Source: Saccharopolyspora elongata
GTDB lineage: Bacteria > Actinomycetota > Actinomycetes > Mycobacteriales > Pseudonocardiaceae
Direction of reading: 5' to 3'
DNA: 64,000 nt
Assembly: GCF_004348985.1 (NCBI RefSeq)
Contig: NZ_SMKW01000005.1
Span: forward strand, 1 to 64,000
This document shows, piece after piece, positions 15,433 to 49,175 of this stretch. The position numbers were made by a program, and so were the translations under genes. Below the pieces are notes generated by a model that worked only from the letters and a program-made list of their open reading frames with translations, did no database searches and was not told the origin of the DNA. Numbering within the stretch: the first letter of the stretch is position 1; each line of letters starts with the position of its first letter.

Positions 15433-15770
15433 CGCGGCTCGTTGCCGGCGTAGCGGATCACCTCGACCTCGTCGAGCAGCACCAGGCCGTTGGTGACCAG
15501 TCCGTCGAGCTCCGGCAGGAAGCTCCGCACCCGCTGCTCGTCGTCGACGATCACCACCGCGACCGGCAGGTCCTCGCTCAGCGACAGCAGCCGCGCGGTG
15601 TGGATCGCCGCGGTCGCGCCGAAGCCCTCGACGCCGCGGAACACCGAGGCGCCGGCCAGCCCGGCGTGCCTGGCCCGCAGCACGATCTCGTGGTACAGCG
15701 GTTTGTGCTGGTAGGTGTCGCCTTCGCCGACGATCGCGGTGAGCCGGAACGCCTCGCCCTGCAGCCGCAT
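15429..15770 (-). CDS. DUF190 protein in fluoride-channel cluster
   Basis: A 113-residue protein with the DUF190 pattern: [30 protein letters not shown] and [17 protein letters not shown]190 genes are commonly found with crcB, and the fold resembles PII-like proteins, so a regulatory role in fluoride export has been supposed but is not proven. It overlaps both neighbours by one to four bases. ATG at 15770 is taken; GTG at 15773 is an equal alternative. Confidence 0.88.
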
Positions 15771-16213
15771 CACCGATCACCCCGCCCGAACAGGCGCGCC
15801 ACCGAGCGCGCCGCCAACACCCCGACGAGCACCGCGAGCAGGCAGCTCAGCACGGTCCCGACCAGGTAGGCCAGGGCGAGCGCGGGCTGGTGGTCGAGCA
15901 CGAGGTGCAGCGCGTCGACGACGTAGGTGGAGAACGTGGTGAACCCGCCGAGCACGCCGACGCCGAGGAACGGCCGGACCAGCCGGTGCGCGACGACGAG
16001 CTCGGTGATCACGTGCATCAGCACCCCGATGGCCACGCAGCCGATCACGTTGACCAGCAACGTCGACAACGGCCCCGGCCAGGCCAGGGACGCGCCGTAG
16101 CGCAGCAGCGAGCCCAGCGTGCCGCCGACCGAGACCACCGCGTACACGTCCCACGCGGCCCTGGTCCGGGGCTTGCTCTGCGGCTGCAGCTCAGCCGGGA
16201 ATGCCGAACCCAT
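15770..16213 (-). CDS. crcB: CrcB/FluC fluoride channel subunit
   Basis: A 147-residue protein with four membrane helices, the segments [11 protein letters not shown] and [17 protein letters not shown] of the FluC family and an N-terminal extension of about 20 polar residues. It is the first gene of the crcB-DUF190-crcB operon. ATG at 16213 follows AGGAG by four bases; GTG at 16225 is possible. Confidence 0.88.
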
Positions 16214-20257: not shown

Positions 20258-21058
20258 TCAGCGGCTGGCGACGCGGCGGTAGCGGGCGACCGCGAGCGGC
20301 ATGAAGATCGCCAGGATGACCAGCGCGGATCCGATCGAGTAGAGCACCGCGTGCTGCGCCGGCCAGCTGTCCGGCGGCGGGCCGGTGACCCGCAGCGGGT
20401 TGCCGTAGAGCTGGCGCAGCGCGTCTGCGGTGACGGTGATCGGGTTCCACTCCGCGAAGGCGCGCAGCGGCGCGGGCATCGCCTCCGCCGGCACGAACGC
20501 CGACGAGACGAAGGTGACCGGGAACAGCCAGAGCAGCCCGGCGCTCTGCGCCACCTCGACGCTGCGCGAGATCAGCCCGATGAACGCGCCGACCCAGGAC
20601 ATCGCGAACGAGAACAGCAGCAGGATGAAGAACGCGAGCAGCGCCTCGAACAGGCTGCCGCGGATCCGCCAGCCCACCAGCAGCCCGCACGCCGACATGA
20701 TCACCACGGTCAGCACGCTGATCACGAGGTCCGACGAGGTGCGGCCCAGCAGCACCGCGATCCGCGACATCGGCAGCGACCGGAACCGGTCCACGATGCC
20801 CTTGTTCAGGTCGTTGGCCAGCCCGATCACGGTGAACGCGCTGTTGAAAGCGACGGTCTGCACGAAGATCCCGCCGATCAGGAACTCCCGGTACGCCTCG
20901 CCGCCGAGGCTGCCGCCGAAGACGTAGGCGAACAGCAGCACGAACATGATCGGCTGCGCGGTGCTGGACAGCAGCCAGTCCGGGTTGCGCTTGATGTTCA
21001 TCAGGTTCCGCCACGCGACGACACTGCTGTCGCGGATGCTGGCGGCGAGCGCGCTCAT
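20258..21058 (-). CDS. ABC-2 type exporter permease (DrrB-like)
   Basis: A 266-residue membrane protein with six predicted helices, the family start AWRNLMNIKRNPDWLL and the helix 5 segment FVSSAFVPAEAMP. DrrB-like permeases pair with an ATPase to export drugs or lipids. The partner ATPase gene lies upstream, but a 144-nt cassette encoding a 47-residue peptide lies between them, overlapping both by ATGA. Confidence 0.88.
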   Translation of the reverse strand: MSALAASIRDSSVVAWRNLMNIKRNPDWLLSSTAQPIMFVLLFAYVFGGSLGGEAYREFLIGGIFVQTVAFNSAFTVIGLANDLNKGIVDRFRSLPMSRIAVLLGRTSSDLVISVLTVVIMSACGLLVGWRIRGSLFEALLAFFILLLFSFAMSWVGAFIGLISRSVEVAQSAGLLWLFPVTFVSSAFVPAEAMPAPLRAFAEWNPITVTADALRQLYGNPLRVTGPPPDSWPAQHAVLYSIGSALVILAIFMPLAVARYRRVASR

Positions 21059-21198
21059 GGCCGTTCCGCCTCTCCGTGCTTCACAGTTGTGGCCGCGTCC
21101 GGCTCGATCTCGCGTTTCGCGGTTTCTTGTGGCTGGTTTGCGTCACGTTCCCCTGAGGTGCGGTTGAGCAGGACTGGGGTTGACACAGGGCTACTCAT
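21055..21198 (-). CDS. 47-residue ORF in MIRU-like cassette, copy 1
   Basis: ATG at 21198 overlaps the ATPase stop (ATGA), and its own TGA overlaps the permease ATG (ATGA), so all three genes would be translationally coupled. The peptide starts MSSPVST and contains [12 protein letters not shown], is polar and has no membrane segment or signal. A second copy with the same length and both overlaps is at 48283-48426; they differ at 12 of 144 positions (7 amino-acid changes, 5 silent), with no gaps. The design matches the MIRU elements of M. tuberculosis, but the sequence is different. Confidence 0.7.
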
Positions 21199-22151
21199 GG
21201 CTGCCCCTCCTGCTCCTCGGTGCGGCGGCCGGTCAGGCCCAGGAACACGTCGTCCAGCGTCGGCCGGTGCAGCGCGACGTCGTGCACCGCGACATCTTCG
21301 GCGTCCAGCCGGCGCAGCGCCTCGATCAGCGACTTCGGCCCGCTGTCCACGGCGACGAACGCCTTCCGCAGGTTTTCCTCGACCTCCGGTTCCCCGGCGC
21401 CGACCTCGCCGAGCACCCGCGCGACGACCGGCAGGTCGGCCGCGTCCTGCGCGACCAGTTCGAGGCGCTCGCCGCCGACCTGCGACTTGAGCTCGTCGGC
21501 GGTGCCGCTGGCGATCACCCGGCCGCGGTCGATCACCGCGATGCCGTCGGCCAGCTGGTCGGCCTCCTCCAGGTATTGCGTGGTCAGCAGCACGGTGGTG
21601 CCGTCGGCGACGAGTTCGCCGATGACCTGCCAGGTGTCCATCCGGCCGCGCGGGTCCAGGCCGGTGGTGGGCTCGTCGAGCACCACGACGGCAGGGGCGG
21701 CGACCAGCGCGCCGGCCAGGTCGAGCCGTCGCCGCATCCCGCCGGAGTAGCCCTTCGACGGCCGGTCGGCGGCGTCCTGCAGGCGGAACCGGTCCAGCAG
21801 CCGCCGGGCTCGCGCGCTCGCGTCGGCGCGGGTCATGCCGTACAGTCGGCCGACCATGTAGAGGTTCTCGTAGCCGGTGAGGTTCTCGTCGACCGCCGCG
21901 TACTGCCCGGACAGGCCGATCGAGCGGCGGACCGCCTGCGGGTCGGCGAGCACGTCGTGCCCGGCCACGAAGGCCCGCCCGGAGTCCGGCTTGAGCAGGG
22001 TGGTGAGGATCCGCACGACGGTGGTCTTGCCCGCGCCGTTGGGGCCGAGCAGGCCGAGCACCTGTCCGGTCGGGATCTCCAGGTCCACGCCGTCGAGCGC
22101 GCGGTTCGCGCCGAAGGTCTTCGCCAGGGCTTCCGCGCGCACCGCCGTCAT
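21195..22151 (-). CDS. ABC exporter ATPase (DrrA-like)
   Basis: A 318-residue ATPase with Walker A GPNGAGKT (about 36-43), signature [12 protein letters not shown], Walker [13 protein letters not shown] and an H-loop-type region ([19 protein letters not shown], Gln in place of His as in DrrA-type proteins). The C-terminal 90 residues match the DrrA accessory region ending [14 protein letters not shown]. It would power the permease at 20258 for export of drugs or other hydrophobic compounds. Confidence 0.92.
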
Positions 22152-47557: not shown

Positions 47558-48286
47558 GTGTCAGATGGATGCGACCCGATGTCGGACCTGTGCGAACCGG
47601 TGCCGGGCAGGCGGGTGCGGGCCAACCCGGGCGAGGGCGGGCGGCTGCGCGAGGAGATCCTCCTCGTGGCCGAGCGGATGCTGGTCGAGGCCGGCACCGA
47701 GGAGGCGCTCACGCTGCGGGCCGTGGCCGAGCGCGCCGGCGTCACCACGCCGTCGGTGTACCGGCACTTCGCGAGCAAGGACCGGCTGGTCGAGGCGGTG
47801 TGCCTGCGGGCGTGGGACGGGCTGGGCAGCCGGATCCGCGAAGCCTGCGCGCGGCTGACGGATCCGTTCATCGCGCTGGGCCAATGTGGACGCGCCTACG
47901 TCCGGTTCGCCCTCGATCATCCGGTGCAGTACCGCGTTCTGATGCTGCACCGGCCCGGTGGTCCGGAGCTCTCGCCCGCGACGGAGGAGTGCTTCGCGCA
48001 CATGGTGGACGCGGTCACCGCGTGCGTGGACGGCGGAGTGCTGCGCGGAGACCCCCGCACGCTGGCGTTGAGCTTGTGGTCCGCGATGCACGGGTGCGTG
48101 TCGCTGCTGATCAACCAGCCTTCGCTGCCGTGGCCCGAGGATCTCGACGAGTTCGTCAACGACGTGGTGCGGATCGCCGGTTTCGGAGCGGCCGTGAGCA
48201 CCCGGCTGTCGCGGACCGCGGTGCCGCGCAGCGCGGACGTGGCCGCCGGCGCGGACGCGATGGTCATGCGGATGGAGAGGGCATGA
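47558..48286 (+). CDS. TetR-family regulator
   Basis: A 242-residue TetR protein with HTH segments REEILLVAERMLVEAGTEEA and LRAVAERAGVTTPSVYRHFA and a TetR_C_33-type ligand domain (HPVQYRVLMLHRPGGPE). GTG at 47558 or ATG at 47579 may be the start. Its stop overlaps the start of the MIRU-like cassette, which in turn overlaps an SDR gene, making a three-cistron coupled unit. Confidence 0.85.
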   Translation: MSDGCDPMSDLCEPVPGRRVRANPGEGGRLREEILLVAERMLVEAGTEEALTLRAVAERAGVTTPSVYRHFASKDRLVEAVCLRAWDGLGSRIREACARLTDPFIALGQCGRAYVRFALDHPVQYRVLMLHRPGGPELSPATEECFAHMVDAVTACVDGGVLRGDPRTLALSLWSAMHGCVSLLINQPSLPWPEDLDEFVNDVVRIAGFGAAVSTRLSRTAVPRSADVAAGADAMVMRMERA

Positions 48287-48426
48287 GTAGCCCTGTGTCA
48301 ACCCGAGTCCTCCTCAACCGCACCTCAGGGGAACGTGACGCAAACCAGCCACGAGAAACTGCGAAACGCGGGATTGAGCCGGACGCAACCACAACTGTGA
48401 AACGCGGAGAGGCGGAACCGGCATGA
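48283..48426 (+). CDS. 47-residue ORF in MIRU-like cassette, copy 2
   Basis: ATG at 48283 overlaps the TetR stop (ATGA) and the TGA overlaps the SDR ATG at 48423 (ATGA). The peptide differs from copy 1 (21055-21198) at seven residues (for example P8R, Q23R, E29G) and has the same length. The neighbours are unrelated to those of copy 1, so the cassette, and not the operon, was copied. Confidence 0.7.
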   Translation: MSSPVSTRVLLNRTSGERDANQPRETAKRGIEPDATTTVKRGEAEPA

Positions 48427-49175
48427 GCACGAGCCTCGCTGGGCGGATCGCGCTGGTGACGGGAGGATCTCGGGGGATCGGCGCCGAGACGGCTCGGTTG
48501 CTGGGGGCCGCGGGCGCCCGGGTCTTCGTGAACTACCGGGAGAAGGCCAGGCGCGCTCAACGAGTCGTCGACGAGATCGCCCGCGCGGGCGGTGCGGCCT
48601 CGGCCGTGCGCGCGGACCTCACCGACCGGGCCGAGGTCGCGGCCATGACCGGCGAGATCCGCGACCTGTGCGGCCGCCTGGACCTGCTGGTCCTCAACGC
48701 CTCCGGCGGGATGGAGCGCGACGTCCCGCCCGATTACGCGCTCCGGTTGAACCGCGACGCCCAAGTGTCCCTTGTGGACGCGGCAATGCCGTTGCTGCCG
48801 CCGTCGGCGCGGATCGTCTTCGTCACCAGCCACCAGGCGCACTTCCACGGCAGGCGGCCCACCTACGACGAGTACGAACCGGTGGCCGCGAGCAAGCGGG
48901 CCGGCGAGGACGCGCTGCGCGACCGGATCCCCGACCTGGCGGCCCGTGGGATCGGCCTGGTGGTCGTCTCGGGGGACATGATCGAGGGCACGATCACCCC
49001 GACGCTCCTGGAGCGCGCCCGCCCCGGCATCATCGACGCCCGCCGCGCGGAGGCCGGATCCCTGCCGACGGTCTCCGAGTTCGCCGCCGAAATCGCGTCC
49101 GCGGCAACCGCCCCGCTGGAGACCGGGCACACCGCCTACGTCGGCGGCGAGGACTACCTGGTCGACCGGAGCTGA
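48423..49175 (+). CDS. SDR-family oxidoreductase
   Basis: A 250-residue SDR with TGGSRGIGAETARLL at the cofactor site and LVLNASGG in place of the NAG motif. The catalytic region reads VTSHQAHF then YEPVAASKRAGEDAL, so Tyr and Lys are seven rather than four positions apart, a divergent form seen in some SDRs annotated without function. It is the last gene of the TetR-cassette-SDR unit. Confidence 0.82.
   Translation: MSTSLAGRIALVTGGSRGIGAETARLLGAAGARVFVNYREKARRAQRVVDEIARAGGAASAVRADLTDRAEVAAMTGEIRDLCGRLDLLVLNASGGMERDVPPDYALRLNRDAQVSLVDAAMPLLPPSARIVFVTSHQAHFHGRRPTYDEYEPVAASKRAGEDALRDRIPDLAARGIGLVVVSGDMIEGTITPTLLERARPGIIDARRAEAGSLPTVSEFAAEIASAATAPLETGHTAYVGGEDYLVDRS

Follow-up and report, generated by a model that had tools for sequence, protein, structure and literature searches.

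A putative non-autonomous mobile element at stop/start overlaps in Saccharopolyspora and other Pseudonocardiaceae, whose open reading frame may relay ribosomes between neighboring genes

The analyzed window is a stretch of 64,000 nt from the draft genome assembly of Saccharopolyspora elongata (10.3 Mb in 277 contigs), in which a short unit, here termed a coupling cassette, separates the two genes of an ABC transporter pair. Direct reading of the sequence placed this unit (copy 1) at positions 21055..21198 of the minus strand, where it consists of an ATGA, 136 nt, and a second ATGA, and holds a 47-codon ORF; the distance from ATGA to ATGA is 144 nt, or 48 codons, and the unit therefore carries an ORF from the first ATGA to the second. 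In the 5' ATGA (21195..21198, minus strand), the TGA is the stop of a DrrA-like gene and the ATG is the start of the 47-residue ORF, and in the 3' ATGA (21055..21058, minus strand) the TGA stops this ORF and the ATG starts a DrrB-like gene. The upstream gene (21195..22151, minus strand) encodes a DrrA-like ABC ATPase that matched TIGR01188 above its cut-off together with PF00005 and PF13732, and the downstream gene (20258..21058, minus strand) encodes a DrrB-like ABC-2 permease (PF01061, ABC2_membrane), matched by DrrB-family models, TIGR01247 among them, below their cut-offs. Within the unit lie a 41-nt core common to units of other genera (21126..21166, minus strand) and the Shine-Dalgarno-like purine block GGAGAGGCGG (21066..21075, minus strand) ahead of the 3' ATGA, the latter being invariant in 26 aligned units. 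Copy 2 (48283..48426, plus strand) is equal to copy 1 at 132 of 144 bases (92% identity), likewise has ATGA at either end, and stands between a TetR-family regulator gene (47558..48286, plus strand; PF00440, PF13305) and an SDR oxidoreductase gene (48423..49175, plus strand; NF005868, PF00106). Sequence reading and domain matches thus confirmed the preliminary description both in the anatomy that it gave for copy 1 and in its report of a second copy between unrelated genes. A third copy lies on the same contig outside the window (C216:135183-135326, locus L011), and no upstream partner was called for the gene that follows it. The antisense of the left end of copy 1 (21178-21198) contains TTGACA, a -35-like hexamer directed into the upstream gene.

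The unit gave at least 19 BLAST matches in its own genome, where 40 of 63 initial candidates were scored, the weakest with an E-value of 2.2e-30, so that the repeat cannot be ascribed to chance. Within the genus, matches were found in 19 of 22 genomes, the own genome included, reaching at least 44 in a single genome by BLAST, with all per-genome counts to be taken as lower bounds, since ~39 candidates were scored in each. At the family level, 53 of 297 genomes and 19 of 46 genera had matches, many of which were 22-59-nt matches to the core alone, the weakest of these being possibly due to chance. Named genomes scanned with a sequence pattern yielded at least 116 stretches, and the hosts among the matches listed comprise Saccharopolyspora, Actinophytocola, Actinosynnema, Kibdelosporangium, Labedaea, and Amycolatopsis. 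Beyond the Pseudonocardiaceae nothing convincing emerged from profile searches run with strict filters and seven candidates scored per genome: the order sample (profile R1) had matches in 17 of 397 genomes, only three of them outside the family, these being weak and showing no clear anatomy, and the one match among the 394 genomes of the class sample was the own genome. Locus L359, from another family of the order, combines a weak profile match (E-value 2.4e-5) with an end in TTCGGAGAGGCGGGATAG ahead of the downstream gene, in a gap read as rpmA-obg, and is perhaps a distant relative or a chance match. The profile-based collection comprised 211 hits, reduced to 190 distinct units from 177 loci after removal of hits below 25 bits and of duplicate contexts, and a usable 5' start was present in 155 of the 190. 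By their coordinates, three tandem pairs of units have one ATGA in common. In S. shandongensis (G018), two units at 15615-15898 have an ATGA in common, and several end matches are clustered in the same genome at C127:160193-160485, apparently as adjacent units.

The register of the units at gene junctions was examined with gene frames called from GC at codon positions, not from annotation, which gave a co-directional frame upstream of 102 and downstream of 155 of the 190 units; the opposite strand scored better in 53 of them upstream and in 24 downstream. Among the 86 units with a judgeable upstream frame and left end, 71 had the upstream stop exactly in their 5' NTGA, and the nearest downstream start was located exactly at the 3' ATGA in 64 of 132. 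In 87 units whose 5' NTGA holds the upstream stop, the ORF continues into an ATGA or GTGA overlap with the next gene in 48 and into a TRATG-type overlap in six, the remainder comprising 20 in-frame fusions, five early stops, seven units without an identified downstream frame, and one other. These 87 units are followed by genes of 64 different clusters, and the count of one unit per cluster was 64 in all (35 ATGA/GTGA, 4 TRATG-type, 16 fused, 4 with an early stop, 4 without a frame, and 1 other). The flanks also include basic biosynthetic operons, namely pyrBC, purSQ, carAB, and ilvBN (enrichment uncounted); all gene names except drrA, drrB, pyrC, TetR, and SDR were read from flanking protein ends rather than assigned by family search. 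An intergenic flavor of the unit occurs in S. hirsuta (L144, L140, and L062), being longer, preceded by a common stretch of ~90 nt with two hairpin-like repeats, and lacking the ATGA ends; for L144 and L140, the opposite strand gave the better score downstream. Since the core and the GGAGAGGCGG block persist in this flavor in the absence of ATGA ends, they may have a part in movement instead of in translation.

Comparison of occupied and empty sites bears on how the units came to lie at these junctions, which the preliminary description had ascribed to insertion into an ATGA overlap. Among 13 orthologues of drrB in the genus (at least 81% identity), the unit was present in two (G000 and G018), and all ten unit-free drrA-drrB pairs exhibited a bare NTGA overlap, with ATGA or GTGA ending the drrA tail; the orthologue in G015 starts with GTGA, and the drrA tail is absent before it. 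The near relatives carry GTGA at this site, and the unit of G018 has GTGA at its 5' end and ATGA at its 3' end. The presence of NTGA at both ends of a unit versus a single NTGA in the empty sites is compatible with either target duplication or an ATGA borne by the element. A broader view was offered by G014, for which 2.0 Mb were read, the unit was not found, and 13 orthologous places were recovered: nine of them have a single NTGA start, and the exceptions are TGATG (carAB), TGAATG (before a triosephosphate-isomerase-like gene), and two unclear cases. One of these nine places, corresponding to L013/L066, lacks a callable upstream frame, which raises the possibility that the unit targets ATGA as a start codon rather than as an overlap. 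Likewise, the site filled at L164 in S. hirsuta has one ATGA in S. soli (L116). An apparent empty site with ATGT (L005, against L176) does not fit. Of 49 candidate empty sites, most were repeats of drrAB or artefacts of tandem copies, and we accordingly used drrAB and L164/L116, counting L176/L005 as a misfit. No ancestral ATGA site was recovered for copy 2: in S. soli (G019), the genes at the close orthologue overlap over a longer stretch and the start is ATGG. Insertion into an ATGA overlap is thus supported by the empty sites at drrA-drrB, which holds copy 1, and did not find the same support at copy 2. The direct overlap anticipated for orthologous pairs lacking the unit was found in all ten cases at drrA-drrB and in all 13 empty pairs of the pyrB-pyrC tree described below.

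The pyrB-pyrC junction was read in all 22 genomes of the genus, and 11 of them were filled (one by a 101-nt remnant and one by a tandem) and 11 empty, S. hirsuta among the latter, with a 4-nt ATGA overlap kept in every empty pair. In neighboring genera, G033 and G066 are empty with the same 4-nt overlap and G072, the sister of G033, is filled; in more distant genera the pyrB-pyrC spacing is variable and was not counted, since the matches there do not begin at start codons. A tree of PyrB and PyrC sequences from 25 genomes, 13 empty (all with the 4-nt ATGA overlap) and 12 filled, from which three outgroup rows with other unit-free spacers (69, 27, and 145 nt) were omitted, required ten changes of the filled state on the best topology, no fewer than shuffled labels give (mean 8.6), and at least six gains or losses on well-supported branches. 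Filled and empty alleles group together in this tree, G072 (filled) with G033 (empty) and G011 (S. kobensis, filled) with G001 and G009 (S. indica, empty), which indicates a change in the unit and none in the genes. With the remnant omitted, nine of 11 pyrBC units resemble a unit at another locus more than any other pyrBC unit, a comparison in which the larger set of other-locus units (98 vs 10) favors such best matches. These mixed groups, together with the 64 flanking-gene clusters for 87 units, speak against the alternative that the units spread as copies recombined or as their flanking DNA was transferred, instead of by insertion of the unit alone; this alternative draws on the fact that no transposase was identified and on gene conversion, which could make the copies uniform, and we regard it as very unlikely.

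Of the 87 copies in register, 80 have an open frame when read from the 5' ATG, and 0 and 7 do so in the +1 and +2 frames; when each site was represented by its one most diverged copy (n = 64), the three frames were open in 59, 0, and 6, and in the 17 most diverged copies (profile score of at most 80) the first was open in 15 and the others in 0 and 2. An early stop was found in five of the 87. The ORF has a non-standard length in 52 copies, 46 of which remain linked downstream, through an overlap in 26 and a fusion in 20 (P = 3e-4 for copies that are not independent, against a null of about 2/3 and not 1/3, because two of the three frames count as linked). Of the 78 copies with a recognizable core, 68 have it in the consensus frame, nine in the second open frame, and one, which stops early, in the closed frame; in a tandem pair of the own genome a shifted frame reads through both units to end at the last ATGA.

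A rival possibility is an ordinary small gene whose functional 47-residue peptide has been copied beside many operons. The 47-codon ORF is intact in 43 distinct copies, and a 13-residue stretch of the peptide, or close variants of it, recurs across genera, as such a gene would have it. Against it, the dN/dS of 0.79 (for the other frames, 1.13 and 0.67) is the same as that of column shuffles (0.82, range 0.49-1.47), the ORF has a GC3 of 0.62 compared with 0.91-0.98 for the four genes next to the two window copies, the nine copies mentioned above have the core in the second open frame, and the peptide had no match in Pfam, NCBIfam, PHROGs, or PDB. No purifying selection on the residues was evident and the codons are unlike host usage, and we consider a small gene of this kind highly improbable. 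Two observations that would have marked the ORF as an ordinary gene according to the preliminary description, a constant operon or membership in a known family conserved with DrrAB, are excluded by the diversity of downstream clusters and by the lack of any family match. Taken together, a frame kept open, a dN/dS as in shuffles, and a low GC3 indicate that, within reach of these tests, it is the unbroken frame that seems to matter, and the peptide does not.

What an unbroken frame could provide is suggested by the arrangement of starts and stops. Termination-reinitiation, by which ribosomes that have ended one gene start on the next, is a known process of coupling in translation, and the anatomy of the unit points to its occurrence at each ATGA. 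The GGAGAGGCGG block precedes the second start by 8-17 nt, as a Shine-Dalgarno site would only loosely do, and its position is constant in 42 of 43 standard units. The folding around both starts (-22.8 and -21.1 kcal/mol) is like that of other ATGA sites preceded by a Shine-Dalgarno sequence (-22.3 kcal/mol). The RNA of the unit, which is T-poor (11.4%), folds less stably than random stretches taken from a congener (-42.9 vs -58.3 kcal/mol), a property explained in copy 1 by base composition (z 0.53). An RNA element was also considered and rejected, in view of the absence of Rfam matches for units in eight loci, the lack of excess stability in copy 1 given by that z, and a covariation that is nearly nil (term -0.13). 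The latter two results count equally against a unit useful to its host, for instance as a portable tuner of the ratio of coupled products or as a translation sensor, a role for which one may cite the strong conservation of the core and of GGAGAGGCGG and the occurrence in basic biosynthetic operons. Closely related species differ patchily in whether a given site is occupied, and the empty sites are exact, which is another point against it, and we judge a host-serving unit unlikely.

In up to 20 of the 87 units in register, the ORF continues without a frame change into the downstream protein, and in four of these no alternative start was found nearby; in the others, GTG, TTG, or ATG codons near the junction could serve as the start. 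Some copies therefore appear to be in-frame leaders of the downstream protein, in which the stop/start has been lost. One site was found in three states, coupled in S. indica (L076), fused in the own genome (L017), and as a bare ATGA in G014, and this series suggests a path from a relay peptide to an N-terminal extension of a host protein.

With regard to movement, the unit shares with MITEs and with units derived from IS200/IS605 the properties of being small, repeated, site-preferring, and devoid of a transposase. Unlike MITEs, terminal inverted repeats are absent, with no inverted pair of at least 8 bases in both window copies and their 10-nt flanks, and unlike IS200/IS605-derived units, a resident Y1 transposase was not found in G001, G007 (S. 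hirsuta), or G011, for each of which 40 or 41 unit matches were counted as a lower bound. The Y1 family itself was found in nine of the 22 genomes of the genus; the maximum, 19 matches, many of them fragments, is in G006, in which at least four units were found. Single-stranded hairpin ends of the IS200/IS605 kind were also rejected, since the fold of the unit is weaker than that of its shuffled versions (z 1.82). An autonomous parent with the same ends was sought in the own draft genome, and all 15 left-end and 16 right-end matches with up to three mismatches proved to lie within known copies or at their ends. As for a carrier, viral contigs had no exact match to the core, and plasmids and phages had no blastn match at 1e-5.

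Considering these lines of evidence jointly, we interpret the unit, at a probability of roughly 0.85, as a non-autonomous mobile element, present in Saccharopolyspora and further genera of the Pseudonocardiaceae, that inserts at NTGA starts and would be tolerated as a ribosome relay. As the empty sites show, insertion occurs at NTGA (mostly ATGA) starts, typically in overlaps of a TGA stop and an ATG start, leaving NTGA at both ends. A ribosome finishing the upstream gene would then reinitiate on the ORF of the unit, traverse it, and reinitiate at the downstream gene; it is because of this relaying that the element would be tolerated, and the relay would let it settle in operons, including those of basic metabolism, at little cost. 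Some copies would subsequently lose the stop/start and become leaders fused in frame to the downstream protein. The suggestion of the preliminary description that these are mobile coupling elements of a lineage other than the mycobacteria is consistent with the many loci, the empty sites, and the several genera of Pseudonocardiaceae found here.

The closest likeness is to the MIRUs (mycobacterial interspersed repetitive units), which are described as short, apparently mobile repeats at start codons, with an ORF of their own coupled to the gene at a spacing of -4 nt (PMC12548453), the class I MIRU measuring 77 nt (PMC4128351). Like a MIRU, the unit is a short interspersed repeat with many copies per genome, forms tandem copies in register, and, judging from its anatomy and the empty sites, inserts at a start codon with its ORF in a -4 nt overlap. 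Unlike the MIRUs as there described, its host family is not mycobacterial, its length is 144 nt versus 77 nt (PMC4128351), and it exhibits in-frame fusions and a core read in a second frame. The unit would thus work like a MIRU, a likeness of anatomy. The RPEs (Rickettsia palindromic elements), repeats of ~150 bp with an ORF able to join host proteins in frame (PMC10969869), are of similar size, and the ORF of the fused units may enter a host protein in a comparable way. Many RPEs lie inside genes, unlike the units, which lie at gene junctions, mostly with a separate ORF; even in the fused units (20 of 87) the insertion point is a junction and not a gene body as in RPEs, and the window copies have no inverted repeat of at least 8 bases.

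Our search of open PMC text found no description of such a family. To our knowledge, the MIRUs stood nearly alone as insertions that preserve coupling, and their way of moving is unknown. We lean toward the view that a family of ribosome-relay elements targeting start/stop overlaps arose outside the mycobacteria, probably independently, that it entered the 4-base site of the pyrimidine operon repeatedly, and that its members become N-terminal extensions. With close relatives that offer clean alleles of both kinds, empty and filled, the question of coupling-preserving insertion becomes testable, and a second, non-mycobacterial family would open target choice, movement, the ribosome relay, and the step from relay to extension to study in soil actinomycetes. 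If this view is correct, mobile DNA would give rise to novel protein sequence with no prior disruption of an operon.
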